A stretch of 64,000 nucleotides of DNA from Polytrichum commune (lineage: Eukaryota; Streptophyta; Polytrichopsida; Polytrichales; Polytrichaceae): contig OX485809.1 of the NCBI GenBank assembly GCA_950295325.1, positions 4,836,001 through 4,900,000 on the forward strand. Direction: 5' to 3'. Made by a program: the position numbers and the translations under genes. The notes beneath the pieces are model-generated. The model saw only the letters and a program-made list of their open reading frames with translations. It did not search any database and had not been told where the DNA came from. Below are positions 1,087-62,043 of the stretch, in pieces; position 1 is the first letter of the stretch; each line of letters opens with the position of its first letter.

Positions 1087-4000
1087 ATGGCGGTGCACGG
1101 CTCCTCTCGCAGGGATGCGGAAGAGGAGATAGAGGACGGAGAAGATGATGACGATGATGATGATGAGGGGTTTGATGAGGAGTTCATGAAGCAGATGGAT
1201 GCCTTGAAACAAGCTTGCCAGATGCACGCTGAGTCTCGGCCGGGTGGAGAGGTAAGACTCAAGAGCTCAACCCTAGGAACCAAGTTTGGGAAGGAAGAGG
1301 GAGAAGAAGATGACCAAGAGGACGATGATGATGATGATGATGATGCTCTCCTACTTTCCATTGAGCGCAGGTTCTTGAGGCGAGATGTGGCTTTTCCAAA
1401 ACCCTTGGCTAGTGCTCCCGCAGGTGTGGCCAGGCATTATCCCTGCGTGGCGGACGATGTTAGGAAGGAGAAGGAGAAGCAGCCGGTGCAGAGAGGAGGT
1501 TCTGCAAACCATGGGATCCATGTTGCCTCTGCTGTGCAGGGAGATGCATCTTCTGACGATGATGAGGACCTGTTGCGGTCGATCAGACAAAGTTGCGGGG
1601 CTTTGGACCTCATCAAGGCATGTAAAAATGCGAAAACTGTTACGCCGGATGCTCGAAGGGAGGTGGAAACCGTGCCGGATGATGTGGATGTGGAATACCC
1701 TGATGCATGTGGAATTGAGGAGGCGGAGGAGGAACCGAGGCTTGTGAAATCGGACGATAGAATTGAGCTGCAGGGTTTTCTTCCTTCGCAGCATGTCGGT
1801 GATGATTATGACAATTGGGATGGAGCTTCTGGTGAGCCAGTGGTTGAGGTCCCCGAGAATGTGCTGGCAGTTACGGATGCATTGAGAAAAAACAGGCTGT
1901 GTCAGCAAACCCTAAGGGATGTGTTGCGGCAAGTGGAGATCAAGTTGCAAGAAAATAAGGACATGCAGAGACGCGTGAACTCGTTGATTGAATTCCAGAA
2001 GGCGTGCAAGCGAAAGTTCAGTGGGTTCACAGAGGTGGCCAATCCATCCGTGGAGCTTATTGCAACGAAAACATCGCGGGCAAAGAAGACCGGGGAGTTC
2101 AAGGTGAAAGGTCCTCCGCACAATGTAGATGTTGAAATTTTTAGAAAATTGCAGTGCCAACTTCCCACAGAGTTCAATGTGAGGAAGTGGACGAAGAAGG
2201 AGATTGATTCTTTGGGGAAAGGTGTGCGGCAACAGCTCCAACAGATTTGGCTGCGGGTGGTTATGGAGGGTTGGGCTTCCGACAACGAGGAGCGAGATTT
2301 CAATGAGCAATTGCGACATATTGGAGAGGAAGAAGAGGAATTGAAGAAAGGACTCCCTTTTGTTGACTGGAAAGAGGTAGCACGCATCTATGTGAGCGGT
2401 CGGACGCCCTCGGATTGCAAATTGCAATGGGAGAACAATGAGAATCCGTCTGCAAATTTTGGAATTTGGACCAAAGCAGAGGACAAGAAGCTACTAGCTA
2501 TTGCTCAGGTCCATGACATGGCAGATTGGGCAGCGATTGCTGAGGAGTTGGGCACACGTCGAACCCCAGCACAGTGTGTCATACGCTTTCAACGCAGCCT
2601 AAATGCAACAATTGTTCGCAGTGCTTGGACTCCTGAAGAGGATGAGCAGCTGCAGGCAGCAGTAGAGAAATTTGGAGAGAAGGATTGGCAATCAGTGGCT
2701 GCCTGCATGGAAGGCCGTTTGGGTTCACAGTGTATGGCTAGGTGGACCAAGGTGCTACACCCTGACCGCCATCGGCGAGGGAGATGGCAAAAAGAAGAAG
2801 ATACACGTTTGAAGTGGGCTGTCTCAGTCTATGGACCTAAGGGCTGGAAAAACATTGCCACACATGTACCAGGCCGGTCTGATGTTCAATGCCGGGAGCG
2901 GTGGTGCAATGTACTGGATCCCTCGGTGAACATAGACGATTGGACTCCAGAGGAAGATGCAAAATTAGAAGACCTTGTAGTCAAGTATGGGCGCCATCGG
3001 TGGGCAGCTGTGGCAGCGGAGCTGGGTCGCACTGACAATCAGTGCTTCCGACATTGGAAATTGTTGCATCCAAAGCACAGAATGTCTTTCAAGAAAGATA
3101 TGGCTATTCGTCGGGCTGCTTTTGCATCAAACTTTGTTGGTCGGGAAAAGGAGCGACCTGACCTTGGACTCCAGGATTTCCTACCCCCTGAACTGGGGGA
3201 GAAATGCATCACAGAGAAGCCCTCGAAGCAGCCCTTGATGTGTGGATCTATTAAGAAGTCTAGGCTACGCGTGACTGCCCCAAGTAAAGCACGTTCTGCC
3301 AAGCGTAAGAGGAATGCACCTAGGAATGAGATGCCCAACGGCCAAGATAGGGAGGAAGATGATTCAGACACCGTTTCGGACATTGATTCAGACATTGGCA
3401 GAGAGTCTAACGTTCTTGAAAGCCCACATAGATGTCAAGTTCCGACACAGGTTGCGAGAGCTGGCAAGAAACGAAAGGCAGCCCAGCATGACTTGGTTCT
3501 CTATAACAAAGAAGGAGAGGAGGTAGAGAGGGCTGAAGCACCTGTAGCACAGATACCTATGAAACAGAAGTCGAAGTCTGCATCAGCTGCAAAGAGACAG
3601 AAGATAAATCCCCCAGTTGGTGAGATTCTTAGGACTGAGGGGGCTCAAGCAGCTGTTGCACTTAAGCCCACAAAACAGAAGGCGAAATTGGTGGCGTCTG
3701 GAAATAGACGTAGGAAAGACCCATCAGTCTCTGAGATTCATAGGCTTGAGGAGATACATGGGGCTGAAGCTGCTGCTGCTGCACCTGTGCGCAAAAATTT
3801 GAAGACCAAATTTACCCCTGTTGCAAAGAGACGTCAGGAAGTTCTTCCTATATCTGATAATCAAAGGGTAGAAGAGACAGATGGGGCTCAAGCACCTCTT
3901 TTGCCGGAGCTCACATCACAGAAGACAAGATCTGTCCCTGCTTCAAAGAGACGAAGGAAGAAAACTTCATTATCTGACAATCAGAGGGTGGAGGAGGTAG

Positions 4001-4776
4001 AGGGGGCTGAAGCACTTGTTGCACGTGAGCTAACCGTACGGGAAAAATTGAACACATCAAATGCAAATAGAAAAAGGAAAAATCCATTTTCTGACATTCA
4101 GATGGTGGAGGAGGTCGTAGAGGGGGCTGAAGTGCCTGCCTTACAGAAGACCAAATCCATGCCCGTTTACAAGAGGAGGAAAAATCCTCCTGTTTCTAAC
4201 ATTCTTAGGATTGAAGAGGTACAGGGAGCAGAGGCACTTGTGCAAAGATCTGAACCTGCATGTGTTGAGAGGCAGAGAGAAGACCCTCCAGTTTCTGACA
4301 TACAGAGGACGGATGAGATAGAGGGGGCTGTAGACCCTGTTCTGCTCGAGCCCTCATTGCCTAATTCTGGATCAGTGCCCGTTGCACAGGGACATGGGGA
4401 AAATGCTCCACTGTCAGACATTCTTAGAGCAGAGGATAGGGTTCCGGATAATGGTGGATACTCAAGCATTCCAAATAGCCAGCAGGAACTCAAAGTGTAT
4501 AAACGGCGGGAAAAGAAGATTGAGATGGCTCAAGCCTTTGATCTTGTTTCGGCATTAATTGAGCCATTGCAAGACGAGCAGGGATACAGGGTTGATGTGG
4601 CTCATCCTGTTTCGACATTAATTGAGCCTTTGCAAGACGAGCAGGGAGACAGGGTTGATGGGGCTGATCCTCCTACAAGCTTCGACATTATTACTATGGT
4701 AGTGCCCAAGCCGGTGTTGCGGAGACACAGGAAGAAGCTTCAGCTTCCCGATTTTGTATACGACAGAGGAGATTGA
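1087..4776 (+). CDS. MYB4R1: MYB4R1 / SNAPC4-like four-repeat MYB protein, intronless
   Basis: Uninterrupted 1229-codon frame; the start lies in a good context (GCAGGGATGG). The DNA-binding part is one half MYB repeat (about residues 425-450) plus four full repeats with first tryptophans near residues 461, 514, 567 and 619 (motifs IWTKAED, WTPEEDEQL, WQKEEDTRL, WTPEEDAKL), ending at HPKHR near 665. This half-plus-four layout is diagnostic of SNAPC4 and plant MYB4R1, the largest subunit of the snRNA-activating complex, which binds the upstream element of snRNA genes for Pol II and Pol III. The N-terminus carries two long acidic runs (D/E rich, about residues 12-36 and 68-88). The C-terminal 560 residues are basic and repetitive and are not part of the conserved family core. 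The protein looks longer than typical plant relatives. Lack of introns is odd: plant relatives are normally split (family knowledge), so intron loss or a retrocopy is possible. Family assignment is strong; SNAPc function is inferred. Confidence 0.93.
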   Translation: MAVHGSSRRDAEEEIEDGEDDDDDDDEGFDEEFMKQMDALKQACQMHAESRPGGEVRLKSSTLGTKFGKEEGEEDDQEDDDDDDDDALLLSIERRFLRRDVAFPKPLASAPAGVARHYPCVADDVRKEKEKQPVQRGGSANHGIHVASAVQGDASSDDDEDLLRSIRQSCGALDLIKACKNAKTVTPDARREVETVPDDVDVEYPDACGIEEAEEEPRLVKSDDRIELQGFLPSQHVGDDYDNWDGASGEPVVEVPENVLAVTDALRKNRLCQQTLRDVLRQVEIKLQENKDMQRRVNSLIEFQKACKRKFSGFTEVANPSVELIATKTSRAKKTGEFKVKGPPHNVDVEIFRKLQCQLPTEFNVRKWTKKEIDSLGKGVRQQLQQIWLRVVMEGWASDNEERDFNEQLRHIGEEEEELKKGLPFVDWKEVARIYVSGRTPSDCKLQWENNENPSANFGIWTKAEDKKLLAIAQVHDMADWAAIAEELGTRRTPAQCVIRFQRSLNATIVRSAWTPEEDEQLQAAVEKFGEKDWQSVAACMEGRLGSQCMARWTKVLHPDRHRRGRWQKEEDTRLKWAVSVYGPKGWKNIATHVPGRSDVQCRERWCNVLDPSVNIDDWTPEEDAKLEDLVVKYGRHRWAAVAAELGRTDNQCFRHWKLLHPKHRMSFKKDMAIRRAAFASNFVGREKERPDLGLQDFLPPELGEKCITEKPSKQPLMCGSIKKSRLRVTAPSKARSAKRKRNAPRNEMPNGQDREEDDSDTVSDIDSDIGRESNVLESPHRCQVPTQVARAGKKRKAAQHDLVLYNKEGEEVERAEAPVAQIPMKQKSKSASAAKRQKINPPVGEILRTEGAQAAVALKPTKQKAKLVASGNRRRKDPSVSEIHRLEEIHGAEAAAAAPVRKNLKTKFTPVAKRRQEVLPISDNQRVEETDGAQAPLLPELTSQKTRSVPASKRRRKKTSLSDNQRVEEVEGAEALVARELTVREKLNTSNANRKRKNPFSDIQMVEEVVEGAEVPALQKTKSMPVYKRRKNPPVSNILRIEEVQGAEALVQRSEPACVERQREDPPVSDIQRTDEIEGAVDPVLLEPSLPNSGSVPVAQGHGENAPLSDILRAEDRVPDNGGYSSIPNSQQELKVYKRREKKIEMAQAFDLVSALIEPLQDEQGYRVDVAHPVSTLIEPLQDEQGDRVDGADPPTSFDIITMVVPKPVLRRHRKKLQLPDFVYDRGD
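3562..4440 (+). repeat. Degenerate ~40-aa repeats in MYB4R1-like C-terminus
   Basis: About eight in-frame degenerate units of 35-40 residues (residues about 826-1118) share the pattern KRRRK-x-P-x-SD(I/N)-x-R-x-EE(V/I)-x-GAEA. Each combines a basic patch (KRRRK, KRRKNP), an SDIQR/SDNQR box and an acidic EEVEGAEA box. At DNA level this is an old coding minisatellite. It may give a multivalent tail; no known domain is recognised. Confidence 0.75.
4546..4671 (+). repeat. 63-bp coding tandem duplication (2 units)
   Basis: Two adjacent 63-bp units encode 21-residue blocks beginning VSALIEPLQDEQ and VSTLIEPLQDEQ. They differ at only a few bases, so this duplication is much younger than the repeats just upstream. 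The reading frame is kept because 63 is divisible by 3. Confidence 0.9.
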
Positions 4777-8031: not shown

Positions 8032-8470
8032 TAGGACTGGACGGATTTTGGAGTATCTGAGGGGCTGATTGCACCGGCCAGTTTTGACACCATCCGTTGC
8101 CATCTCCGGCTGTAATAGTGTGAAAAGTGGTGGGCCAACATCTTTTTCTCAACATAGTCCCCATCCATTTCACAGCTGGAACTGAATGAAGTTTTTTCGT
8201 GTGATCGGGGCCCGAGGGGTTGATCACACTAGCCACTTATGACACCATCCGTTGACATTTCCAGGTGTAATAGTGTGAAAAGTGGTGGGTCACCATCTCT
8301 TTCTCAACATAATCCCCACCAATTGCACGGTTTGAACCGGACGGAGAATTTGATGTGATCAAAGCCCAAGGAGTTGATCACATTGGCCAATTTTGACACC
8401 ATCAGTCGGCATCTCCGGTTGTTATAGTATGAAAAATAATGGGCTAGCATCTACGGTTTCTAAGTTGAAG
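8032..8470. repeat. Tandem repeat, ~155 bp x 3
   Basis: The block GACACCATC(C/A)GT starts at 8086, 8241 and 8395, giving periods of 155 and 154 bp. The units share GTGTGAAAAGTGGTGGG, CTCAACATA(G/A)TCCCCA and TTGATCACA(C/T)T. The third unit is the most diverged. An adjoining run (TAAAAT/TAAAAC-rich, about 8508-8560) is a simple-sequence tract. Origin unknown. Confidence 0.8.
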
Positions 8471-11936: not shown

Positions 11937-14900
11937 ATGGCAGCTCGATCATCCGCCGCGGCTCTGTTCAAGCGGGCGCTCGCCACTGGCGCCAGCCAGC
12001 AGCAGCAGGTGCGATGCATGTCCAGCGAAGGACCCCGTCGCAAGGTGGCCGTGCTTGGAGCGGCCGGCGGCATCGGTCAGCCGCTCGGGCTCCTCATGAA
12101 GCTCAACCCCTTGGTCACCGATCTCTCGTTGTATGATATTGCCGCCACTCCCGGCGTCGCTTGCGACATCAGCCACATCAACACCGGTGCCAATGTGAGA
12201 GCACCTGCCTCGGATTTGCCGATTGTATATACTTTTTTGTCTTCCCTTCCGATTTAGCTAAGGAATGGTATTGTAGTTCAGAATGTTACGTGCTGTATTT
12301 GTGCTGAATGGTTGTTGAGCTTGGTGTGTGTCTTTGAGTTCTTGATTTGTAGTGGTCGCTGAGAAAAATGCAACGTCGTGCACCTTAACACCGGTGCTAG
12401 TGTGAGTGCCACTTGTGATGGATCATTGCTCAGCTTGATGTGTTTATTTTAGTACTTGATTTTCCACATGAGCACTGGTGCCAACGCGAGTGGTTGCCTC
12501 GGATTCGCTGGTTCTATATTTATTCTTCCCTTTCGATTTAGCTGAGAAATCTCCATGTAGTTCAGGGTGTACTATGTTTTCCTTGTCCTGAATCATTGTT
12601 CAGCTTTATGTGTTGCATTTTGTGCTTGATTTCCTACATGAACACCGGTGCCAATATTAGTGCCTCGGATTTGCTAATTTCATATTTGTTTACCCCTCTC
12701 GATTTAGTCAGCTGAGGAATGTTGTAGTTCAGGATGTCCTTGTGCCGAATCATTGTTCCAGCTAGATGTGTTTCTTCGATTTTTGGAGGTGGTTGAGGGA
12801 AATGCGATCTCGTACACATCAACACCGGTGTTGGTGCGAGTGCTTCCATTTTGCTGTTGCTCCTGTTTTAGCTTGGAGACTTCGAAGTTCGAACTGGACT
12901 CTCATACATTGGCGCTTTTATTTTAGATGCGGATTCTCTGGTCCAATCGCTTTGTTGTTTTTAAAGTTTTTGTTTGTGATGGTAGCTGAGAAGAATGTGA
13001 TGTGCAGGTGGAAGGTTATGCTGGAGAGGCTGATTTGGGAAAGGCCTTGAAGGGATGTGACTTGGTTATCATCCCAGCCGGAGTACCACGCAAACCTGGA
13101 ATGACTCGTGATGATCTGTTCAACATCAATGCTGGTATTGTGAAGACCCTCTGCACGGCCATTTCTGAACACTGCCCAGGGGTAGGTTGATATATCTCTC
13201 ACCTGAGTATTTCAACCTCATTGTAGAAAATCCAGAGTTTAAAACTTTTTAATAAATGGGATCTGCTTACTTAAAAATCATAACACATGTATATGCGGTC
13301 TTTCACGAACATGAAAGGTTTCGCTCCATGAATAAATTGGAGCGTAATTGAGTGTGATGTTCTAGTTTAAGGCCGATCTGCACTTGTCAAGAACCTCACT
13401 CGAGATAATTGTTCTCTCCAAATATTTTATCAATGTGGAGACCACAAACTGCTGCACCTACCGTTTAGTTACTTGCCAAAAAAATCGTAGACTGGCTAAA
13501 TACTTCTCTACACCGCATTTATGAAGTTGCTGTAATTTATAATGGTAGATTTATTGGATGAAGGGTATGGGACGCTTGATTAATTGCCTCTCTGCAGATA
13601 TTTCACAGAAAATGTACAGTAGCTTAATACATATCTAATAAGCATGCCTATGAGAGTTCAGGACTTAAATAATGCCTGTCGTCATGAGGATTATGTATTC
13701 CTACAGCTTCCAGCTCTTTCGAAGTGCAGTCATGTAGACGATGGTGGTTATTTGAATGACTTGTGCACTTCTGTTTCAAGTACTGAATATGATTGTGTCT
13801 TCAGCAATAGTCTTGCACTTTGTAATACTAATATCAGACGTAAATACACAATTTCCATGATATACATATTGTTTTACACTGTTGCCTTGAGGTTAACTGA
13901 ATGTCGTCTTGTATCGAGGCTAATGAATATGATGTTGCAGGCGTTAGTGAACATGATCAGCAACCCAGTGAACTCAACTGTCCCAATCGCAGCTGAGGTA
14001 TTCAAGCAGTATGGTACTTATGATCCTAAGAAGCTATTTGGTGTGACCACTTTGGATGTGGTGCGAGCAAGGACATTCTATGCCTCCAAGAAGGGTCTAC
14101 GTGTATCAGGTGTGCTGTTATCTCGTTTCACTTGCTAGTTGGTACATGCTGCAGTGCTAACTAGATTCATGGATACACACTCTTTCCAGTCAATGCGAAA
14201 TGCATATTACAGAAGAGAATATCTTTGGAATTTTTTCTTCTTCTAAAGGGACAACATTAGTACTTGTTGTAGTATGCTCCAGGATAGTGATGATGGAACC
14301 ACCTTTGTAGAGATATTCTAGCAAGTTATTTGTGGTCAAAATATAGAGAACGCACATTGGAGGTTTTTGATCTTTTGTGTGGTTATACAGGTGTGGATGT
14401 CCCTGTCGTGGGAGGCCATGCAGGCGTCACCATTCTTCCACTTTTCTCACAGGTGATTGCTCATGTGCCAGCTCTGAAGTACATTGGTAAATAAATAAAA
14501 CTAATGAGATTAGCTTTGGAAACAATGGACATGGTTACTGCATTGTAGGGTGTGGGCAATTTACTGATGTGTTTTTAAAACGGAACCTGCTGGCAGGCCT
14601 CTCCATTGGAGAAGTTGACTGACGAAGAGATTGAGGCTCTTACCAAGCGCACACAAGATGGTGGCACTGAAGTTGTGCAAGCCAAGGCTGGGAAGGGATC
14701 TGCCACTTTGTCAATGGCGTAAGCACCATGCTAACTTCCTATATACTTAAATTGTAGAAATGTAACAGTGGCTGATGAAGTGGTTGCCACCATCTACAAC
14801 CATTCCTGAATTAATATGTACTTGCTATATTTTGAAGCAGTTCCTCTGGAAGGCAGTTTTGCTCCTGAATGGGGTACTCAATGTGGTTGTGGCGAGTTTT

Positions 14901-23951: not shown

Positions 23952-26900
23952 ATGGCGAGGGAGAGGCCACAACTGCGGGAGGAGAGTATTGCAAGCTTGT
24001 TGAAGCAGTCATGGTTCCTATGGCGCTCTTGCTTGGTTCCTGTCCTTATCTTAGCCCTAATTTCTAGCCTGTACTCCTACGCATTGGAGACTTATGTCAG
24101 TCCTATGGCACTTTCTCATATGGACGGAAACGGAAACTCGACACAGAGTAGGAATTCTTCTTCATCATCTCTTGCTGGTCTTGCTGGTGCTCGTGACGCT
24201 CAGGATCTGAAGATGGCCAGAGAACTGTTTGAAGGTGGTGGTGGCCAGATTGAGGATAAGGACAAAGGATTTGTGGCACGCTTCATGGCCGCGTTCCTCG
24301 CTTCGTTCGATGAAGCTTTGATGGAGGGTCTGGCGGATTCCAGGGAGAAAAAGATGTCTGTGTATGATTACGATTCCAGAGGTGGCACGGAATCATCCAG
24401 GAAGGCCGCATTGAATTTGGAATCTTCTTCACATCCGAATTACGATGTCGATGTAAGTGTGTCCCAGCCCAACCTGTCCTCTCTTGATTTTTTCCATACA
24501 CACACAGCAGCTTCAAAACTATATTGAGTTGCTATTAAGTGTAGAACTCTAACTCATAATGAGAAATGGTTATTATATCCTGGGGTTGAATTTGGAATCT
24601 TCACATCTGGATTATGATGTCGATGTATGTCCCAACCTGTCTATGTATCTCTTTTCTAGTGTTGGCTTAACATACAGAGCAGCGTTAAAACCACCTCGAG
24701 TTGCTTTTAAATGCAGAAGTCTATCTCATAATGAGAAGGGTTGTATAATCCTGGGGTTTTAAATAAATACTCCTAATTGCAAGGATGGTGGAATGTTAGA
24801 CAATGATAAGTCACGTTCATACCTTATGATTCATTTGACATTTATGAAACTCACGCTCCAACATTGTGGATCTTGCAACTATAAAGTATCGAAACAAAAG
24901 ATTAAAAATTGCAACCGATGTATGTCTCAACCTGTCCTCTCTTATCCATCGGTGGTATACACAGCAGCTTCGATACCACTGTTGTGTCTTATACTCCATC
25001 ACTATGCGGGAAAATTGCCTTGAGTTGCAAGGCATTTTGCATAATGAAAATCGTTATGTTATCCTGGGGTACCCTAGTTGCAAGGATGGTGGAGTGTTAG
25101 AATTTGATAGGTCGTTTTCAAGATTTTCCCGAAGTAGCCAATGATTTATTCAATAGTGATCCAACTTATTTTTCAATCTTTGACGTCTTGCAACTGTGAG
25201 AAATTTAGAACATTAAACAAACGATGAAAATCGCAGCCCTAGGTTTGGTAGGCATTGATTAAATGTGGCACTTGGATGTGGTTGAATCAATTTGAAATTT
25301 GTGTTGATATGTGATTGCCTCGAGTTGCTGTCAAACATTGTAGTTTGTCTCATAGTGAAAAGCGATATATTATCCTGGGGTACCCCTAATTGCATGAGTG
25401 GTGGAATGTTAGAATTTGATAGGTCATTTTCAAGATATTGCCAAAGTAGCTAATGATTCATTCAAAATTGATGCAACTCACAATATAACCTTAGAGGTCT
25501 TGCAACTATAAAATGTATAAACAAATGTTTGTAATTGTAATTGATTACCGGTAATTGTTATACTTAGATGTACTTGAATCAAAGTACATCAGTAGTCAAA
25601 GCCGTATGGTATTGCTGCAGCTTGTTTAGAAGGCACAACAGAGAAGAATGCTCCTTCGAGACATTCTGTGGATATTTTCTTAATAGGAGATTACAGGAAA
25701 GTGGGTATGGCTGAATCTGGCTGGATATATTGTGGTACTTTTCAGGATTTTGTTTAGTGAACTTGAAATGTTTGTAGCGCTGATCATTGGTTGTGTTCTT
25801 TTTCAGGGTGCCACCACTACCTCTGATGCCACATCTGAATCAGGATCAAAGGAAGCATTGTTAAAGATAGATGGTGTCAGTGAGACAGAGCCCATTCCCC
25901 AATTTTCTCTCAAATTAAGATATCTGCGGAAGAATGAGAGTACTGAAGCAGAGAACTATCACGAGGAAAAAGTTGGGATTGGGATGCCTTCAGCTCGGCT
26001 GATGGGAGGAAGGAACCTGGACAGAGGTGCTAGGCCTCATGTAGGACTCACACTGCTCTTCGTGTTGAGCATGTTACTCGGTGTTTTTGCAGCGTCTTTT
26101 GCCATCGTCATGTGTCAACATGCTGCTCTTTTAGGAACCATCGCGTACAGTGTTGTCAGTACTTATGTAGGAAAGCGAGTAAGCACTGTTCGTGCAATGA
26201 AGGCTGGTGTCAAATTAGGTCTGATCCGGTTGGTATGGCTCGCTTTTCTGCATGTAACTATTAGGGATTTGATGTGCCTCTTCATTATGAAGACCCTAGT
26301 CGGCGGAGTGTTGGATCCAGAGAGAGCTGATAAACTTGTGCTCCGGCTTTCATTTATGCCCTTCTCAGTACTTGCACCCTTTAGGGACGCTGAAGCCACC
26401 AGCTTGGAAATGGCTTTTCGAATTGGGGGTTTTGTGAGTCTGGACTACCTTTTTGATGCAGCAATCTCATGCATCTATATTGTGGCATGCTGGGTAACTA
26501 TCATGGAGAGACAATATTGGGGTTTTTCTGCTTTGACACGTGGGTGGAAGTTGATCTCCGGCATGCAAAGTCAGGTTTGTCCTGTTTTAAAGTTCTCAAT
26601 CAGATTGTGTAGCTTGCTATTGTCTTGCAGTGTCTCAAGCTGCATGTGTTCATCATTGATGAGATAGTTAGGCCGTACTTGTTTCAATCTTAGTATAAGT
26701 GATTTCTGAGTATGCTCAGTACAATTATCATAGATGTATGTTGGAGTGTTATTTTCGGAGTACATTTGGATTGGGAACTCACTCGGGATGGTTATTTGGA
26801 CTAACATATTTTCATGTGTAAGCAGGTAATTGCACTCAAGGTAATAGAGGGTGTCTTAACTGGAAGGAGTGCTCGCTGGATCCTGCAACAGTTTATGGGC

Positions 26901-27047
26901 CCCTTCCTCTCTTTGCTTGTTGTTTCAGCAGGCCAGATGTACTTCATTATATGCTGGCTAGTGTTGTACTTTTCGGCACGCTTCAAGCAGGAGAACACTC
27001 ATTTTAATTCCAGAATTTTGGAGGACTTTCTAGACAGGCTTAGGTAG
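23952..27047 (+). CDS. Multi-pass membrane protein of unknown function, 3 exons
   Basis: Exons 23952-24452, 25807-26574 and 26826-27047 join in phase 0 through GT-AG borders into 496 residues. The start at 23952 has a strong context (CATAATGG); an in-frame ATG at 23844 would add 36 residues in a poor context. Hydrophobic stretches: about residues 25-45 (CLVPVLILALISSLYSYALE), two in the middle of exon 2 (LTLLFVLSMLLGVFAASFAI and LGLIRLVWLAFLHVTIRDLM), one near its end (AAISCIYIVACWVTI), and one in exon 3 (PFLSLLVVSAGQMYFIICWL). A Ser/Asn-rich and acidic linker follows the first segment. The C-terminus ends in a basic tail. I cannot name the family; the pattern fits an integral membrane protein of the endomembrane system. 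The full-length open frame and good splice sites argue for a live gene. Intron 1 (1354 bp) holds a tandem array of exon 1 junction copies. Confidence 0.85.
24411..25440 (+). repeat. Tandem copies of the exon 1/intron 1 junction in the membrane-protein gene
   Basis: The exon 1 end TTGAATTTGGAATCTTC through GATGTCGAT (24411-24452) is repeated at 24586-24624, again followed by a donor-like GTATGT and CCCAACCTGTC. A weaker copy, CCGATGTATGTCTCAACCTG, is near 24915. The downstream block GAGTTGC...CTCATAATGA...TATCCTGGGG occurs four times, starting near 24525, 24697, 25022 and 25322. Units also share GCAAGGATGGTGGA and GAATTTGATAGGTC. Most of intron 1 is thus a decayed concatemer. Confidence 0.85.
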
Positions 27048-29550: not shown

Positions 29551-29756
29551 ATAATCATCAATTAGTGCATGCTACTTTTCGAAGTTGTGGAGTGCTATAA
29601 ATAGTTCACGAGAATGTGATATATATACCGAGCAAAGTCATTTATGTTCTATAATGTCCAAACAATCTATTGAACTTTTGTTAGTAAAAATTGAACCTTT
29701 GAGCAAGACACTATTGCATTGTATAACTCCAAATAGTAACACACTAATTGGGATCA
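29551..29756. mobile_element. MITE, CCCAATTAGTG family, copy 1
   Basis: Ends ATCATCAATTAGTGCATG and ACACTAATTGGGATCAT, an inverted repeat of about 40 bp. Shares AGCAAAGTCATT, TTCTATAATGTCC and TATTGAACTTTTGTTAGTAA with the copies at 32479-32690, 55442-55650 and 61837-62043. About 206 bp, non-coding. Confidence 0.75.
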
Positions 29757-32478
29757 TCAATGTACTCAAAATGTCATAAATGAAATCTCCCTCAATGACT
29801 TAATAAAGTGTTCTTTTGATAAGAAAAAGCAAGAAATGGGAGAAACTACAAGTTTGGGATACATATTTCTATTTGTGATCTATTATGGACACCTTAAATC
29901 AAGGTTGTACTATATTTGGACATGAAATATATGTTAAATGATCCTCTTAAAAAATAAAACCAAGTGGAGACATATATGCACGCATAGCAAGTCTACAGTG
30001 TAGCTTTGGGACATGGGCGAGTGAATGGAGGCTCCAACATAAGTCATCCCATGGATTAGCCAGTTTTACAATTGCAATGAACTATATATAGGGCATTGAT
30101 AATAAGCCTAGCACGTAATTTGTGGTCCCATATTCTCACAATCATGAGTTGCTAGGGAAGTTCCTAATAGCTTATTTCAAAGAAGCATTGTATCCCATGC
30201 AAAATGCGGGGCATCTCCAAGATGGGTAGCACAAATGGATGCTCCTATGTGATCACAACGGGTCATCAATAGTTTTCATTGAGAGTTTCCATAAGAAATG
30301 GAGACATGATTCAAATATTGTTAATCCAATGACCTAATCAAAATATAAAGTGGATCACTCTAAGTGCCTAAACTCGCCGAAGTGTTCACAATAGGTGAAG
30401 TTACCTAACGGTTCTTGAGACGATGACTTAAATTCTAAGTTCACCATGTTATGTAAATGACATTCTTTGAATCTTAAGAGAAAGTTCAACCTTTATTGGG
30501 ATTAAGATTACCAATTGATTTAATTTTTTGTGACGATCTGTGATAAAAATAAAAATAAAATAAAAATTGTTCCAACAATATAGACATAGTCCAACATTTA
30601 TCTTTCAAAACTCTCTTTTGAATTGAACCAACTTAAAATTAGGTCTTCGAATCATACTCTACAATACAATTTTAATATGACATCAACCTACCATGCCTTT
30701 AGGGGTTAACTTGTTGTCTAGCCATGGTTAACTTGGAACTTGCTTTAAGAGCGTGTCTAATGTCGACTATCCCCTCCAATTTTATTTGCTAACATCGGCT
30801 TCTAAGGTTTTAAAGGTACAAAGACGTTCTTCTCCCTCGGTCTAGAGTTAATTTTTTGTTGTGTTTAAGGGCTTTATATTATTAGTATTGCTTAGGCCTA
30901 TTTGCAATAAAATTGGATCCATGTGTGGCAAGTTACTATGATGGGGGGATTCACATTGGGATTTTTTTTAGTCATAACACATGGAATACAAAAATAATTG
31001 CACTTTCTAATACACATCTAAATATGGTAACATATGTATCATGTTTCTTTCACGACTAGTTATTATACATGATGCTTATTACATAGGAAAAATCGGTAAG
31101 CAACTTTGGTGATCTCTTCATTGGACCACACATATCAGTTTTAACACACTATTTTCTTGCATGATGATGTGTGATGTGAGCCATACTATAAGGTTACCTA
31201 CAGTAAGCCACATCATGCATATGCCTACATTGTAAGAAAATAAACTACAAGGATGCATATAACTACACTAAATGACATGTATTTAATGTCATATGACATG
31301 TATTTAATGTCATGTGGCATTTATGTCATTGTGGTAACTTTTTTTAGTGGCACTTTCAATGAAGAAGTTTAGAAATATTGTCATCCCAACTTACTTCCAT
31401 TTCATCCAAATTCCAATTATTGAAACAAAGATTGGTATAATTTGCATCCTCACAAAATTGTGATGAAATATTGTCATTGATGATTGAAATTTGGATGAAT
31501 AATCACTTCGTAAGTGATAGTAATCAAAAAATTGTAAATCTTTAATCCCCCAAAATTTTTGCAAGGAATGACAAATAATGTTGGGTTAACATTTACTTTT
31601 GGTGACACTACACTGGGGTTTACAATTAGAATGGTGACACTAAATACAATGTTTAGTGTAGTTGTGTCAAAAGGATCCTAACAAAAATCAACTCATTGAT
31701 CAAGTGCATTACAAGAAATAAATTAATACCTTAATGCAATTGATGGTTTGGGTTCTAACACACAACCTTGGTGCCCTTGGATGCAAATGCATGTTTAGTA
31801 TCTTGATCATCAATGTGGCTTATGTCTATGTTTTAGTTTTCTCCTTGACATAAGATTATTGAATAAAGTTTCAAACCCATAATATAAAGAAACTTGATTC
31901 TAATACTTGGTGAGGACTGGTAGACATTCTATATAGAGGTTTTACTCTGAGCCCCTTAGACCTTTGAGGGTTAAATTGGACTGTACACTTGAATATTTAT
32001 ATGTTTTGTACCCTAGAAAGGTACGTGGGCTTGGTCCGAGATGACTTTAAATTACCGGATGATAGTGGAGAGGTACCCAAAGCAAATGGAGTGGTTGATG
32101 GTTCGATTCCCAGCTGTGAAATCGTTTCTACTTGATGGAAAAACTAGCTAGGTGGTCAAGAACCTCCTCTGTCCCCCCCCCCCCCCCCCCCCAAAAAAAG
32201 AAGAAGAAGGCATGTGGACCTTGTACTTAATCGGGTTGTATATGGCAAGGTTTGTAGTTAATAATGGAAGCCAGAATAACATGTGTTATGATCTAGTATG
32301 AGATTGGACTTTGTGCGCAAAATATATTAACCATTATAGGTTCAATAGTGAACCTGATTGAGAGGGCCATCATGATTGTTTCAAGCGAGAAACAATCTTC
32401 ACTTTCGACTTCTTTACGTTTTGCATCTCCACCCTTATTTCCTACAATTTGAAATCATAATATCGGCGTTGAAACTGA
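29757..32478. other. Gene-free AT-rich stretch with small repeats
   Basis: Contains a tandem pair of ATGACATGTATTTAATGTCAT units at about 31272-31315, a repeat segment at 31750-31990 related to 34780-34980 and 47580-47820 (shared CTTTGAGGGTTAAA-type blocks), and a C20 tract at 32173-32192 followed by AAG repeats. GGTTCGATTCC at 32099 resembles a Pol III B box, but no tRNA fold was found. No gene is supported. Confidence 0.35.
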
Positions 32479-32690
32479 TTATCCCAATTAGTGCATGTTA
32501 TTGTTCGGAGTTGTGCAATGCTCTAACCATATAATGAGCATTGTAATATTTCACCAAGCAAAGTCATCCATTCATGTTCTATAATGTCCGTACCAACCTA
32601 TTGAATTTGTGTTAGTAAAAATCAAACTCTTGAGTAAGATGTTAGTGCACTGCATAACGCCAAATAGTGACACGCACTAATTGGGATAAT
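32479..32690. mobile_element. MITE, CCCAATTAGTG family, copy 2 (best ends)
   Basis: Begins TTATCCCAATTAGTGCATGT and ends ACACGCACTAATTGGGATAA; the inverted repeat extends about 42 bp through GTTCGGAGTTGTGCAATGC and GCACTGCATAACGCC. About 212 bp. The TTA/TAA edges fit a TWA-type target, but an exact duplication is not seen. Non-coding. Confidence 0.8.
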
Positions 32691-35600
32691 CATTGTAGCA
32701 ATCATTAAATGAATGAGAAAGTTTCCAAGCCAATCTGAGTTTCCAACATTATAAAATGTATGTGGAGTTGGAAGCAACACTTAATGAAGCCACTTACCTT
32801 AACACAAAATCTTCGTGCAACCAAATCCAACCATATTTTAACCTTTGAAGTTATGGATGGGAGGGTTAGCTTAAGTGGAATGAGACAAAATCTCAAATCC
32901 ATTGCGAACTTAGGGAACCCTCTAGGAACCTTTTAAATCCCACACAAATGCTCTCATAAGATGGGATGAACAATCAACTCCTTCATCTTGCAAACATTGA
33001 ATTTTCATTCACCAAAATTTCATCCGTTGGAAGTAAATTTCGGACTGCCCGAGTAGTTTCGTGGTCCGTAGGATGGGGCTTTGTGAGTTGATGGCTTAGA
33101 TGTGGTCTGCCCACGACCACACACCCTCCAATCACATCACCTCAGTGACATGGGTAGGGAAGGCCTCCTTTTATCTACTACACATAGTTACTATTTGCTT
33201 GAAACATATACATAATTAATTATATCCTTTATTTTCTTGAGTGAATTCTGCGTCCTTGTTGACTTTCTTTTCAAAAGTGGAATGTTTTGTTATAGCTCCG
33301 ACATGTGATTAATTTTGTTGGAGAAATCCGTAGCTTGAAAGCACATAAGTGTCTAACTTCTTTCACAAAAACTTGCATGCTCCGGTATACTTTGTTATAA
33401 CTCTTACAAATCCTTGAAGCTGGATTCTTATTATATATTTAGTTTATATGGACATTTAAAAAAAAGTCATCCACAATTTTGTAAGAGAGAAACAATTCTT
33501 TAGAGACTTAACATTCAAATTCCTCAATTGATTTACAAGAACAAAACAAATGCTTGAGCATTTAGGATTGGAAGATCAAACACTAAACCCTAATCTTCCT
33601 TCTTTGCAACCTCAACTGAATTACTCCACAAATGCACACCTCAAGATCAGCCCTTGCAGTAGTGTTAATAATATAGGCGAATTTAAAGATATGGTGTCGT
33701 TTATAGTTGGCAAGTAAAAACTTAAAAAAACTTAAAGAATCTAATAACACATGGTATTCAAACATGAAAACGAAAAATGATTCTTAGAATTTGTGAACTC
33801 TTTAGAGATACTAACTATACTATTCCTTAGACCCCCCCCCCCACGCCTCGATGCACACGCTCTTAGCTCTTAACCCGATGTAAGTCAAGTTGCGATGGAT
33901 TATTTTCACTTTCGCCAACGGCCATCATTCGGCCCATTTGGATACCAACAACAAAACTCATTGAAAGACTTTGTGATGATTGGCTTCCTTATGTGATGAT
34001 GGTAGAATGTGCAAACTACATGGAATTTTTCTCAATGCCAACGAACTTCAACGTGGTGGCAATCCTTTAGTGAAATTCCAATGATGGAGTTAGAATTTTG
34101 TCGGGGAAAATGCCATCATCAACTTCGATGCGTGGAAGCTAATGGTAGGTGTGGTTGGTTGCAAGCCAATTTAGTTGCTTCCTTGTGAAATGCTCTCGAG
34201 ATTCAAGTGAGATTCATGGTAACTCATTTTTAGGAGGTTAAATAACAAAGCTTAAGAATTAGGTTAGCATAGAGCATTATGAAAACTAAGTAATGGGCTT
34301 TTGGGAAAACTTGGGCCAAGTCTCGGGTAAGGACTAAGTTCATAGACTTTGTTTGCATTGTTTATGGTTGACTACCGGATGAGGGATGGTTTAAATTAAG
34401 TTGGTGCTTCTAACTAATGGGAATATTCCCTACTAAAAGAATTTTTCGGTGCTTAAAGATGGTGAGTAAAGAATAAGTGGCAACGAACAAAACTAAAGAT
34501 GATAAGAATATGATGGGATGATTTTTTTCATGGAGAAAAATTAAGCATAGCAAGTATATAAGCTCATCATTGTTGGTGAAGCTTGGCATGTCAAAATATT
34601 CCCAACGGGATTTTGAGAGGTCGTATTCGGACCTCTTCATGCGCAAAATTGTATGTTTGAACTATAACATACTTTCATTATTAGCTAAGTGCTTCAAGTG
34701 GACTATATCTAAAAGCTACTCATTCATTCATTCATGATTAAGTGCATTTTTTTTTCATAATCAGTTAAACATCTTAATAGAGGTTGAGGGTTAAATCAGG
34801 TTCAAACATACATCATGGATGCCTTTGGATGTAAATACATACTCAATATATGGATCCTCAATCTCACACGAGTAGATTTGTACTATGATTCTAAGACCTA
34901 GTATGGACTATTAGGAAGTACGTATATAGGTTGTCTTGTGAGCTTTGTAAACCTTTGAGGGTTTAACAATGTTATTAACATATCAATACGATTGCTCCAT
35001 AAATTTATTTGTGATTAACTTCATGTTCAATATAAGCACACAATTAGGACTATTGTAGATCATAAGCAAGTTTGGCACTTCTCTGTTGACACACTAATTT
35101 TTGAGGTGACACATGGAATCTTGTAGAGATTCCAACTAATCAAAAAGTGAGACATGGAACTTTGACTAATCAATTTATTTAGAACCTACCCATCATCTAG
35201 GTACATGCCTTAAGGGACAATCAATAAATGTGACAAACACATTGTTAAAAAGTACCTAATTCATGAAAGTAATTGACCGTGATTGTATCATGAGAACAAA
35301 AGATTATCTACAATAATGTATATTGCTCAATCAAATACTCCATCAGTAGAGTCTTTGCCACCATAACATTATTCAAATCCATAATAATGTAATGTGGGAC
35401 TTACAATATTCCACGTAGTATTCCTAGATATTCCCCACATTCAAACTGAACATTGTCATGGATCTGAATAATGTTATGAAGTGTAACTTTGATCAACATG
35501 CTTTGTCAAGTGTACCTTAACCATTAAAATGTTCATGGGTCCCATAGTGCGTTGCCACCTAATATTCAAGGCCAAAACCCCAATTTTAGACTTGGCTTCC

Positions 35601-36964: not shown

Positions 36965-37309
36965 CTCGGGGGGGGGGGGGGGGGGCAGTGTGTTAAAAAG
37001 TTAAGGATATAGGTGCGAACAACCACTATTTTATAGGGGGGTATTGCTTTCAATTTTTTTTTTCACATGCTATCATTATGTAAATTTCTACTTTGGGTTA
37101 ATAGAAAAATGGCTTGCATTACTTATAATTCCAAATTACCTATTATTCCATACCCTATAGTACTTTAAAGATGTCCAGTGTCATTTTTGATACCCTATAT
37201 TACTTTTAAGTCCATTTATAATTTTTTGCCCCCATGTTTTTAAAATACCCTATCATTTGTTCACACGTATATTGCTACTCCAACCAATGACTACCCCCCC
37301 TCCCCGAAT
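36965..37309 (+). mobile_element. G-tract-ended MITE, copy A (345 bp)
   Basis: Begins CTCGGGG with an 18-base G tract and ends with a C-rich run and CCCCGAAT. The subterminal parts are weakly inverted (AGG-ATATAGGTGCGAAC against the complement of GTTCACACGTATATTGC). An exact 8-bp duplication, ATTGTATT, flanks it (36957-36964 and 37310-37317), as in hAT-type elements. Highly similar, inverted copy B is at 41998-42346. No coding capacity. Confidence 0.85.
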
Positions 37310-41997: not shown

Positions 41998-42346
41998 CTC
42001 GGGGGGGGGGGGGTAGTCATTGGTTGGAGTAGCAATATACGTGCGAACAAATGAAAGGGTATTTTAAAAACATAGGGGCAAAAAATTATAAATGGACTTA
42101 AGAGTAATATAGGGTATCAAAAATGGCACTGGACATCTTTAAAGTACTATAGGGTATGGAATAATAGGTAATTTGGAATTACAAGTAATGCAAGCCATTT
42201 TTCTATTAACCCAAAGTAGAAATTTGCATAATGATAGCATGTGAAATAAAGAAGAGAATTGAAAGTAATACCCCCCTATAAAATAGTGGTTGTTCGCACC
42301 TATATCCTTAACTTTTTAACACACTGCCCCCCCCCCCCCCCCCGAG
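41998..42346 (-). mobile_element. G-tract-ended MITE, copy B (349 bp)
   Basis: Inverted relative of copy A (36965-37309), starting CTCGGGG (13 G) and ending in C17 and CCCCGAG. A perfect 8-bp duplication, GTGTGGAC, flanks it (41990-41997 and 42347-42354). The inner sequence is nearly identical to copy A, with a few substitutions and small indels, so both insertions look recent compared with the other repeats here. Confidence 0.9.
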
Positions 42347-45644: not shown

Positions 45645-47341
45645 TGCACATAAAATAGAATAAAATAAAAGCAACGTCTGGGTTTCGTTTACCCTGACGT
45701 GAATGGGAGCCCGTTCTACTCTACCGTGATCATGTTTGACCAAGCGTCACTGTAGGGGTACTTCCTCTCTTTCAGGAGGTGGGCTCCTTTAGTTTACCCA
45801 TCGGTTCAGTTCCTAGCCTCTAGGGGGGATCGACATGTGATTGTTTGTTGTCTAGTTTTCTTTTGTTTAATATCAGGTATGTTAGGTACTTAATGGCTAT
45901 TTGGTGTAGTTGCTTCATAAGTATTTTGATTTCTCTTTTGGGTATTTTAAGGTTTTCTAGCTCTTAAATTGGTTGTTCATGGATAGCCCCTCTAACTCCG
46001 GTTGTGATAGTGATGAGGGGTTGACTTGCCACCCAGCTATTTTGAGTGTTTGGATGAGTGGGTTGTACTTCTCGGTTTTTTCCCTTTTGTGCGGTATTTG
46101 GGAATCTGTCATGACAGTATGTGAATTCAATGAATTGTATGACGTTTGATTGGGTTGGCGTTAGGGGAGGGTGCTTTCGGAGGGAGCACGTAGCACGCAT
46201 AGTATGTCTGGCCTGAGTCTAGCTAGACATGTGCATGGTGTGGTATGACATGAACATTGGAGTAGCCATGTTGGGACTGTGTTGTCTTGTGGTCTGAGAT
46301 TTTGGTTACCTGCATTTATAAGGGTGTAAAATCTTCTATGATTGCTTGATTGTAATGTATGTACTATTTGATGAACTGCCTTATTGTGTCATGCTTTACG
46401 CAATCCCTTTAAGTGTGGGTTTGAACATGTGGAGAGTAGGTGTGGCCATGTATCTAGGGCATTATTAGGGCATAGTGTACAGTTCGGGTTTGGGTATATA
46501 TTGGGCCAAAATATATGTTTACGGTGGTTACCCATGTATTGGGCGTATCAGAATTTTAGAGTTTGTGTAATATGGGCGTCTGTTATTCCATGGTTTTTCC
46601 AGAATTGGTTGGAAAGTTTAGGGTTGATTTGGCCGTTGGATGTCCATTTATCTATGTATGTGAATTTGGATTGGGCCCATTTTAATTCTTGGCTTTTGTG
46701 TTCTTTGTTAACGTATGTTTGTAGGTTCCGTATGGCACCTGTGTGTGTTCCAGTTGGGACCCCGTTGAGCCAATATGGAGTAGTATGGGCCGTATGTATT
46801 CTAGGGGTGTTGGTGGGTTTGTCTAGGAGAGCACCGTTGTTTGCTAGTTGGTCCGCGATTTCATTGCCTATTATTCCTATGTGTGCCCATACTTTTTGAA
46901 TTGTGATTTTGTGTGTGGATCATGTTATGTGGTTGATTATGGCGGAGATGAGTAGCTTATCTGGGTGGTTATGTTGGGATGATGGATGTCGTATATGGTT
47001 GTGTATTATATATATAATGTTAAGGTTGTCTGTAAATATGTGTGTATCTTGTGTGTGTTGATGTGTTTCTTGAACTACTATAAGGAGGGCGTTTAGTTCA
47101 GCTCTAAGGATATTTTGTAGGCCTGGTAGTCTCTTTGCGATTCAGAGGTTGTTGGCGGGGCAATATACGCTTGAGCCACCTTTGTTCCCGACGCCATTCT
47201 CATCTGGAGGGATAAATGATCGGTCAGCGTACATGCATTGTTGGGGTTTGAATTTAAGGGGGTGGGTGTTGGTATAGTTCTATTGGTAGTTGTTGTGTTG
47301 AGTGGGTGCTTTCCTGGTGTTCATATATTGGGGCTTTATGC
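45645..47341 (-). pseudogene. 5'-truncated LINE with RNase H and CCHC motif, decayed
   Basis: The minus strand encodes, from about 47237 downward, an RNase H domain: YADRSF (first Asp), GGSSVYCP, RAELNAL (Glu), IFTDNL (Asp) and VWAHIGIIGNEIADQLAN (His and last Asp). It is followed by a C-x2-C-x9-H-x4-C motif in CTLCPNNALDTWPHLLSTC (46425-46490) and a conserved-looking tail with QFIEFTYCHDRFP and PLITITTGVRGAIHE in a shifted frame (45964-46170). RNase H followed by CCHC is the 3' end of ORF2 in several non-LTR clades. Four in-frame stops between 46389 and 47237 are all TGA. The 3' end is a T/A-rich tail (TTTTATTTTATTCTATTTTA). CATGCGCACA flanks both sides (45635-45644, 47342-47351), a likely target duplication. 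The reverse transcriptase and endonuclease are missing, so it is 5'-truncated and dead. Confidence 0.85.
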
Positions 47342-55357: not shown

Positions 55358-55441
55358 TGAGGTGTCCGTGAAGCCTACACATGGTTGGCACTATAGGTTG
55401 TTAACTATAAGTATGTAGGTCAACATTTTAGTATCTACACT

Positions 55442-55650
55442 AATTGTCCCACTTAGTGTGAGTTACTAATTTAGAGTTACGCAGTGCTATAATTGTTTAA
55501 TGAGGGTGCAATATTTTACCCAGCAAAGTTATTCATGTTATATGAATGTCTGAACAACCTATTGAACTTTCGTTAGCAAAAATTGAACTCCTAAGTAAGA
55601 CACTCTTGCACTACGAATCTCGGAAGAGGAACACACGCTAATTGAAATAA
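55442..55650. mobile_element. MITE, CCCAATTAGTG family, copy 3
   Basis: Shares AGTTACGCAGTGCTATAA, CCCAGCAAAGTTATTCATGT and CTATTGAACTTTCGTTAG with the other copies; termini are partly decayed (TAATTGTCCCACTTAGTG, ACACGCTAATTGAAATAA). Non-coding. Confidence 0.7.
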
Positions 55651-57784
55651 CCAGAGTAGTAACCATTTTTCCTATGATGCTTTTGTTTATCAATCAAGTG
55701 GCACCAATGAACTAGAGAGTGTAATAATTTCATCCATATTCTGACTAACACCATCATAAATGGATGAATAATAAATAATATGGATGGTGTTTCCACAATT
55801 TTCCTTTCAAGCTTTGGTGTGAATTTTGCCAAAAAAAGAGGATAATAATAACATTATTTTTTTTCTTGCTTTTTGACTATAATTATTCCACTAAAGAAAT
55901 CATGGGTAGCTAGGTTAGGGTTAGGTTGGTAGGTGGGTTGTAAGGATGGTAGGCCCTCCCACATGGCATAGCATATCATGACATATGGCGTAGCATATCA
56001 TGCCACTATATCACGAGGCTTTAGTTCATCTTACGGGAAATAAATTTCCACATACACTAACTTAAAAAGCTTGTGGAGATATCATGGTAATTAGTACGTA
56101 GGTCTTGGATATATGGGATGGTGGATTGTAGTCCCAAGGCGGTTTTAGGCAAATCGTTATTGGATAGAAAATATATTTTAATAATGTTTTAGATAAATAT
56201 ATTTTTAAATATATTTTCACTTTTTCTTTGACAAAAAAGATAGTATTTTGCAACACATTTTTTTTCCAATTTTTTCCTATTAATCCCCAGACATGATAAT
56301 TGACATTGAAACCGCCATGATACTATGGTATGTAAGTTTTGCATTTAACAAATTCTTTATGCAATTTAGATAACAATGAAAACCTCAAACCCCCGGTAGC
56401 CACTGAACATTCCTCCCCTCCTTAGTAGATATCAAACTACCTCCTAGTTCAAAGCCTAGCTTGGTACCATTTAGCTATTTGTGGAATACATTTTTTGATT
56501 GTTTTCAGTCAAAATGGAAACGAAATGTAAAGAAGGGTAAAACAGAACTAGTTAGGTGACTCCGGTGTGAAATGACAGGCCATAGTCTAGGAGATATAGA
56601 AAAAGGGAGAATTGTGGAGATTATGGTATGATAGGAAGAGTTGTCACCTTTGTAGTGAAAAGCATATAAAAGGCTGGGGAAAAGAGAGTAGTGCTGGCCG
56701 GGATAGCCCCATGAAAAACTACTATTTATCCTTGGGAACTTTGTGCCTCGTAATTGCTGAAGTCTTTTGTGAACATATGATTATTGTAAAGTTGAATATC
56801 TGTAACCAGGGTGAATGCACTGGGAATTAATCTTACCGTGAGTACTTCTGTGAATAATTTCGATTGGGAGTTCTGTGTGGAAGAGAAGTTACGTCTGAAG
56901 CAGTGTGATTTCATTGCAGTCTCGGATTCTGTGACACCAAGTCTTTATCTCGTGAGAAATCGGCAATGGTTTGGTAGTGTCGGATTGAATGCCCTGTACC
57001 TGTGAGATTCAATGTTGATAAAGCTTCGGGTTCTCATTATCTAAGTAAGGTCGTCTTAACAGTATGATGGCGAGATCACAATGTGGCATAATCTGGTGTT
57101 AGAAATATTATTATCCTCCTGAATGAATTACTGATTCCAAGTATGAGAATGTCTCTGATTGTGAGAGGAAGATCTTTATTCGAGTAATCAACATGATAAT
57201 GTCACCCCAGAAATGATGAATTGATGTCAACACTTCTTATCACAATCTTGGTGGAGGGGAATTACAGAATTAGAGACGAGGAAAATCAGGCTTCCTCAGG
57301 AAGTAGTGATTGTTATGTGAAATGATAATTATTGAGTTTATTATAAATATATGTGTATTACCACTGACACAATTTATAACAAAAGAACAGTTGATTGCCG
57401 ATTCTTTTGTGATGTCATGAGGGAGTCGTAATTGAAGACTGATGTTGGACTGTTCATCTGTACTGCGATAATTTATTTGAAAGTTTAATTGAGGGAACGT
57501 GAGTAATTAATTACTTGATGAAAGTTGATCTCGTACTTTATAAGATGAGTCATATGTTGGAAATGCGTACAAGCATAATGTTTTTCTTCCGAGAAACTTC
57601 TGTTGTTTCTTTCTATGGCTATGGCAGGAGAAGGTTGTTGTGGCGTAAATAAAACCTTTGGCCACGAAGGGTTGAGAGATTGTTCAACCGTTTCATTTCA
57701 GCATAGACTGGTAAGGCTTGTGTACCCATGACCTTGAAAATGTGCGCATAATTAAATGAATTTGGTACGCAGCTCTCTAGCTAC
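55651..57784. other. Gene-free stretch, possible LTR-like promoter
   Basis: A TATA-like ATATAAAAGGCTGGG at about 56665 is followed by sequence of more balanced composition to about 57050. This resembles a solo LTR promoter, but terminal repeats and a primer-binding site could not be shown. No protein-coding frame is recognisable. Confidence 0.3.
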
Positions 57785-61395: not shown

Positions 61396-61836
61396 ACTTG
61401 AACTACATTGAGCAAATCCAATAACTATAAATTCTTATGGAGATATGGTAATAGGACCATATACCTTATAGGAGGGTAAGAAACGCAATGAAGTCTCTAA
61501 ACTCTATATTTGTTTCCATCTTATTCAATGCCATAGTTAGGATCATAGGTCCAAGTTCTCATGTGAATGGAGCAAATTGACCAATTTTGTGTCATAACCC
61601 CTTCTTCAAATTATGTAATGTAGATGCTACACCATTTATTTTAATTAGTGTGGACTGCAGTTTGAAATTGCAAAGTACTTCAACTTCTTACAAAAAATGT
61701 TACATTTTAGTATCAATGTTTTGTTATGTTCTCTAAAGCGCATGTTCCTTAGTTGTAAAAAAATTGCATCCTCAGTAAAAACTTATAGCACTATGTAAAC
61801 ACAAATGGTATTTTGTACCCAATCCATATTACATCA

Positions 61837-62043
61837 ATTATTCCAATTAGTTTGTGTTACTATTCGGAGTTATCTAGTGCAATAACGTCTTATTCAAGAG
61901 TTCGACTTTTACTGAGGAAAGTACAATTGGTTGTTTAGACATTTTATAGAACATAAATGACATTGCTTGAGAAACTATTACATTCTCATTAAATAGTTAT
62001 TGCATTATGTAACTTTGAATATTAACACACACTAATTGGGATA
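61837..62043. mobile_element. MITE, CCCAATTAGTG family, copy 4
   Basis: Begins TTATTCCAATTAGTTTGTGT and ends ACACACACTAATTGGGATAA; inverted ends include TATTCGGAGTTATCTAGTGC and GCATTATGTAACTTTGAATA. The inside is rearranged compared with copies 1-3 (AGTACAATTGG... replaces AGCAAAGTC). Confidence 0.7.

Follow-up and report, generated by a model that had tools for sequence, protein, structure and literature searches.

Intron gain by tandem duplication is treated as an accepted route in the relevant passage of PMC3443670. In a potato case, a duplication that spans an acceptor is described as having created a new intron, and a second, 83-bp duplication within the first intron as having left the gene structure unchanged (PMC4974935). 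The section of PMC7031445 that concerns olive FAD2-2 describes duplications in the first intron, where the pentamer CGATT occurs twice.

The 64-kb window analyzed here (the whole stretch of 64,000 nucleotides) contains two genes in which the first intron is largely composed of tandem copies that include the tail of exon 1 and the donor, as the first-pass annotation had proposed. Head-to-tail copies which hold exon and intron sequence together are present in the first intron of a gene for a DUF7813 protein and in that of a malate dehydrogenase (MDH) gene located 12 kb upstream of it. These are like the potato case (PMC4974935) in that a tandem duplication reaches from exon into intron sequence, or the reverse, and takes splice signals with it. 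Unlike the potato case, where the acceptor was crossed and a new intron arose, the donor is crossed here and an old intron has been lengthened several times, with no new intron. There is also a likeness to the internal duplications cited in PMC4974935 and PMC3443670, which are said there to be common and in some cases to include entire introns. As cited, the interest there is in new or multiplied introns, whereas the intron number is constant here; this contrast is drawn from the citing papers, and the cited study itself may include cases like the present ones. The olive FAD2-2 5′UTR intron is likewise a plant first intron enlarged by duplication, and its authors discuss motifs of intron-mediated enhancement (IME). 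However, in the section cited, the olive duplication is intronic, has no exon tail and forms an insertion that varies between cultivars (PMC7031445), whereas the arrays described here are old and contain the exon tail. A plain report of intron lengthening by duplications that cross the donor was not evident among the open-licence papers searched, which is no proof of absence. The single steps by which an intron lengthens are rarely visible where transposon insertion is not the cause. The exon tail within the unit marks the direction of copying, at least in the MDH gene, and thus the order of events is partly readable.

The reading that we favor, with a probability of about 0.75, is that both first introns were lengthened by tandem duplications of an ordinary kind that span the 5′ splice site, together with a selective filter. 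The copies, their order and the junction sequences are read directly from the DNA, and the gene models come from homology and open frames (Table 1).

Table 1. Gene features and repeat copies in the two loci; positions are counted from the first letter of the window.
Feature	Position	Strand	Description
Exon 1, MDH gene	11937..12194	+	Seven-exon model; ends AAT/GTGAGA (the slash marks the splice site)
MDH unit m1	12162..12368	+	Last 33 nt of exon 1 and 174 nt of intron (207 nt)
MDH copy m2	12369..12452	+	Internal deletion; 84 nt
MDH copy m3	12453..12622	+	170 nt
MDH copy m4	12623..12802	+	180 nt
MDH copy m5	12803..13007	+	Tail copy; middle without significant match; intron end 12965–12997 matches the m1-m2 boundary
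DUF7813 gene	23952–27047	+	Three exons; open frames and splice signals were used for the model, which was built by eye
Exon 1, DUF7813 gene	23952..24452	+	Start codon to putative donor GAT/GTAAGT; gene model
DUF7813 copy u1	24411..24585	+	Last 42 nt of exon 1 and 133 nt of intron
Intron 1, DUF7813 gene	24453..25806	+	1354 nt, of which about 1.15 kb is array
DUF7813 copy u2	24586..24911 (end approximate)	+	Exon-tail copy 24586–24624; donor-like GTATGT at 24625; block GAGTTGC..TCCTGGGG; extension of about 150 nt not in u1
DUF7813 copy u3	24912..25312 (ends approximate)	+	Last few nt of exon tail only (CGAT); GTATGT at 24920
DUF7813 copy u4	25313..25600 (ends approximate)	+	Intronic part only: GAGTTGC block and extension
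Exon 2, DUF7813 gene	25807..26574	+	Gene model
Exon 3, DUF7813 gene, to stop	26826..27047	+	Gene model

The spliced product of the DUF7813 gene is 496 aa in length and displays a match to Pfam DUF7813 (PF25105), which we take to be a plant family, at residues 237–489 (E 1.3e-45). The exon-1 tail is outside of this match. The best PDB match of the protein has only an E-value of 0.31. Judged by eye, the product appears to be a membrane protein, as it was labeled in the first-pass annotation. The donor of exon 1 is placed at 24453 (GTAAGT) from the nucleotide sequence.

The exon-1 tail of this gene was noted previously as being repeated 175 bp downstream with the donor-like GTATGT after it, and alignment bears this out. 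Unit u1 and the adjoining sequence (24586–24756) are identical at 134 of 162 aligned positions, with 22 gap columns, and self-BLAST of u1 against its direct repeat gives E = 8e-21. The sequence TTGAATTTGGAATCTTC is the same in the exon-1 tail and in its intronic copy, at a spacing of 175 bp. Both of the intronic donor copies (24625 and 24920) read GTATGT. The four GAGTTGC...TCCTGGGG blocks listed in the first-pass annotation are also found in intron 1, starting at 24526, 24698, 25022 and 25322; the second one ends AATCCTGGGG instead of TATCCTGGGG. The blocks are the middle part common to the longer units u1–u4, and the array reaches to about position 25600. The final 206 nt of intron 1 display a weak similarity to the array, which is equaled by 6 of 1000 shuffles. 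Intron 2 of the gene has no significant similarity to intron 1 (158 of 1000 shuffles are as good).

The exon tail differs from its copy at 3 of the 39 sites compared, against 25 of 123 in the intron part (P 0.089). The lower divergence of the tail is in the direction that constraint on the real exon alone would give. The 39-nt tail copy at 24586–24624 was considered as a cassette exon and rejected, as it is not directly preceded by an acceptor AG.

The MDH gene has seven exons in its predicted model, and all of its introns are GT-AG. The best solved structures that match the MDH protein are labeled glyoxysomal and chloroplastic; these labels and the family of the DUF7813 protein suggest that the two genes are plant-like. 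The end of exon 1 is placed at 12194/12195 because the spliced protein then fits the solved MDHs without insertion. An alternative donor at 12225 (GTATAT) was rejected; it adds ten residues that are not in the solved MDHs. MDH and DUF7813 are different Pfam families.

Four copies of the exon-1 tail are present in MDH intron 1, at 12369, 12453, 12623 and 12803. The copied tail encodes residues that align with DISHMDTGAV of a solved MDH, and therefore the exon is the source. For the DUF7813 gene the same exon-to-intron direction is assumed by analogy with MDH. The end of MDH intron 1 (12965–12997) matches the boundary between m1 and m2 (12337–12370) with a score of 41, the best of 1000 shuffles scoring 38. 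Taken at face value, this match places the end of the unit about 10 nt short of the acceptor; the duplicated unit probably consisted of 33 nt of exon and of the intron up to that point. The ancestral MDH intron 1 may thus have been perhaps 186 nt long, as estimated by addition of 176 and 10 nt. The remaining five MDH introns are 759, 281, 144, 232 and 149 nt in length, i.e. four are within 144–281 nt. The same intron end compared with copy m5 is not significant (98 of 1000 shuffles are as good), nor is the middle of m5 (12900–12962) compared with the MDH array (222 of 1000).

Divergence of the exon-derived and intron-derived parts was compared among the MDH intronic copies in the pairs m3/m4 and m2/m5 only. 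Copies m3 and m4 differ at 4 of 22 sites in the exon-derived part and at 19 of 119 in the intron-derived part (Fisher P 0.76). Copies m2 and m5 differ at 8 of 33 exon-derived sites and at 7 of 30 sites in the adjoining flank. The MDH tail copies display no sign of constraint in these two pairs.

The exon tails, 25 and 40 nt in length, were compared with their own introns against 500 shuffles. The test set is the eight introns of the two multi-exon genes modeled in the 64-kb window, a count from which introns of other genes may be missing, as gene finding was by coding scan and by eye. Copies of the own tail beat 500 of 500 shuffles in two of the eight introns with both tail lengths, and both are first introns (DUF7813 and MDH). 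The own-tail pattern is absent from the five other MDH introns and from the one other DUF7813 intron. In the two first introns the own tails score 35–50, and tails of other exons score 16–19. The highest score of any unrelated exon end in these introns is 27, which belongs to an exon head in DUF7813 intron 1. The own tail in MDH intron 2 is borderline at 40 nt (12 of 500 shuffles) and gives no signal at 25 nt (216 of 500); the tail of another exon scores higher there. The head of the next exon does not exceed the shuffles in its own preceding intron in any of the eight introns, and acceptor-side duplication was rejected on this result.

Five junctions between copies were inspected. The three that are readable by eye share TT, C and TG, i.e. 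microhomology of no more than 2 nt. The DUF7813 u3-u4 junction has no clean parents, and ATTGCCT is common to both of its sides. The MDH m2-m3 and m3-m4 junctions have zero shared bases; the m2-m3 type may be a deleted form of the m1-m2 type. For the founding events this fits end joining or template switching better than it fits an exchange in which long repeats recombine. An origin of the end-joining type had been suggested previously, and three of the five junctions are consistent with end joining or template switching. The copies are old (K2P 0.18–0.45 for the intron-derived parts), and the junctions are blurred because of this. The duplication start points relative to the donor are –42 and about –4 in the DUF7813 gene, and –33 and perhaps also –22 in the MDH gene.

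Ordinary tandem duplication with a selective filter would account for these arrays in the following way. Small tandem duplications of about 175–310 bp would have occurred repeatedly in both first introns. Most of the duplicated segments would start just inside exon 1 and end in the intron, and at least one would be wholly intronic. The fresh copy of the exon tail would fall within the intron, and splicing of the original upstream donor to the unchanged acceptor would give the same mRNA, which would make the event nearly neutral. Reading beyond the donor reaches a stop codon after 60 nt in the MDH gene and after 72 nt in the DUF7813 gene, and because of these stops the downstream donor copies would be unable to yield the protein. 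Donor-crossing duplications would thus survive because they are spliced out and do little harm, and selection by itself would favor their survival. The founding joins would have been made by end joining or by replication template switching, and later rounds may possibly have been by unequal exchange between existing copies. Surplus copies would decay by drift, and the intron would only lengthen. We infer from sequence which donor is used, that the events were neutral, in what order they occurred and by which repair pathway. The account does not require a mechanism directed at donors, and chance together with selection may explain why the arrays cluster at first introns.

The first-pass annotation had also suggested a recurring mechanism of intron lengthening in this genome, such as slippage or end joining near 5′ splice sites, and the placement of arrays in the window does not establish a special mechanism of this kind. 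Direct self-BLAST pairs with an offset of up to 700 were merged by hand into nine local direct-repeat arrays, one of which is a single 33-nt pair; the MDH and DUF7813 arrays were extended by hand to 12162–12997 and 24411–25600 before counting. Tandem arrays are thus frequent in the window, and the nine cover 4840 of 64000 bases. Seven of the nine are not at donors, and two of these are inside the coding region of a Myb-domain gene. In 100,000 random placements, at least two donors are covered by different arrays in 8.2%. The value is 13.7% when donors and acceptors are counted alike; both first donors are covered in 0.44%, and two array starts are no more than 45 nt upstream of donors in 0.10%. 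These percentages were obtained post hoc and from a null model without selection. Selection removes duplications that alter the protein, and the null does not include this; therefore general duplication plus a filter is held to be the best reading.

A recurring donor-linked mutation is the alternative that survives best, and we consider it unlikely. Duplications would preferentially begin between a few and about 40 nt upstream of the donor, initiated by breaks or by switching of the polymerase in the vicinity of the first 5′ splice site, e.g. at promoter-proximal R-loops. The observed start points support such a process, as do the values of 0.10% and 0.44% and the occurrence of donor-spanning arrays in genes from different Pfam families, and the 0.10% value leaves room for a donor-linked bias. 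However, only two loci are concerned and the test is post hoc, most arrays (seven of nine) are elsewhere, and at least one of the DUF7813 duplications is wholly intronic. In addition, the MDH start at –22 may represent the –33 junction after about 30 nt had been deleted, and a similar pattern results when selection acts against duplications that lie in exons or span the entire intron. The general form of this proposal is unlikely to the same degree: first introns in this genome would lengthen by recurrent donor-anchored duplication whose starts lie no more than about 45 nt before the first 5′ splice site, and dead donors would remain as a stepwise “intron ladder”. Donor-crossing duplications are easily counted genome-wide, and acceptor-crossing and wholly intronic duplications provide an internal control for each intron.

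The Myb-domain gene is a single long reading frame with five Myb domains, which presumably resembles SNAPC4. It displays tandem repeats at 3517–4341 and 4541–4671, one with an offset of 111 nt and the second array with a unit of 63 nt. Local duplication therefore occurs in coding sequence as well.

A still less likely alternative is that the extra copies were kept because they multiply IME signals of the first intron, or because they act as decoy donors that direct a share of the transcripts to nonsense-mediated decay. CGATT is an IME-associated pentamer, as stated in the part of PMC8157754 that deals with such motifs. It occurs five times in MDH intron 1 (12220, 12250, 12534, 12700 and 12777), and none of 300 shuffles has as many; however, the shuffle control ignores joint copying of motifs. 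The excess of CGATT over MDH intron 1 (12195–13007) is at least partly multiplied with the duplicated unit. The motif TTNGATYTG, with one mismatch allowed, is without clear excess in MDH intron 1 (28 of 300 shuffles have as many), and neither motif is in excess in DUF7813 intron 1, where CGATT is entirely missing. An IME signal was rejected as the general cause, since the CGATT excess is restricted to MDH. As to decoys, the donor copies at 12402 (7/9) and at 24625 and 24920 (6/9 each) are close to the real donors (7/9 each) when compared with a donor consensus. However, of the four MDH donor copies only one keeps GT, two having changed to GC and one to AT. The absence of constraint in the MDH tail copies also stands against this alternative.

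An origin of the repeats as a mobile element or satellite that happened to insert in the introns is highly improbable: dispersed repeats are abundant in the window, but no convincing copy of either unit outside its array was found in the 64 kb (the best other matches have E-values of only 0.22 and 0.41, and none of the DUF7813 unit is below 0.2), the units follow each other head to tail and in direct orientation, each with the exon tail of the gene in which it lies, self-BLAST gives no match between the two arrays, and this origin was rejected as unsupported within the window.

Other features were observed in the window. Nothing was matched in Rfam at the gathering threshold or by a tRNA scan run in its bacterial setting. 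A 155-bp unit is present in 2.4 tandem copies at 8059–8452, where the coding scan recognized no gene. A minus-strand open frame at 46548–46919 resembles, by eye, the RNase H part of a retroelement. A dispersed repeat family is found at four places and in both orientations (29559–29764, 32474–32706, 55435–55667 and 61830–62053); some of its members display inverted similarity between their ends and appear MITE-like by eye. Positions 36969–37305 and 42002–42343 form an inverted pair with 95% identity over 342 columns and about 4.7 kb between them, and this is a young repeat pair.
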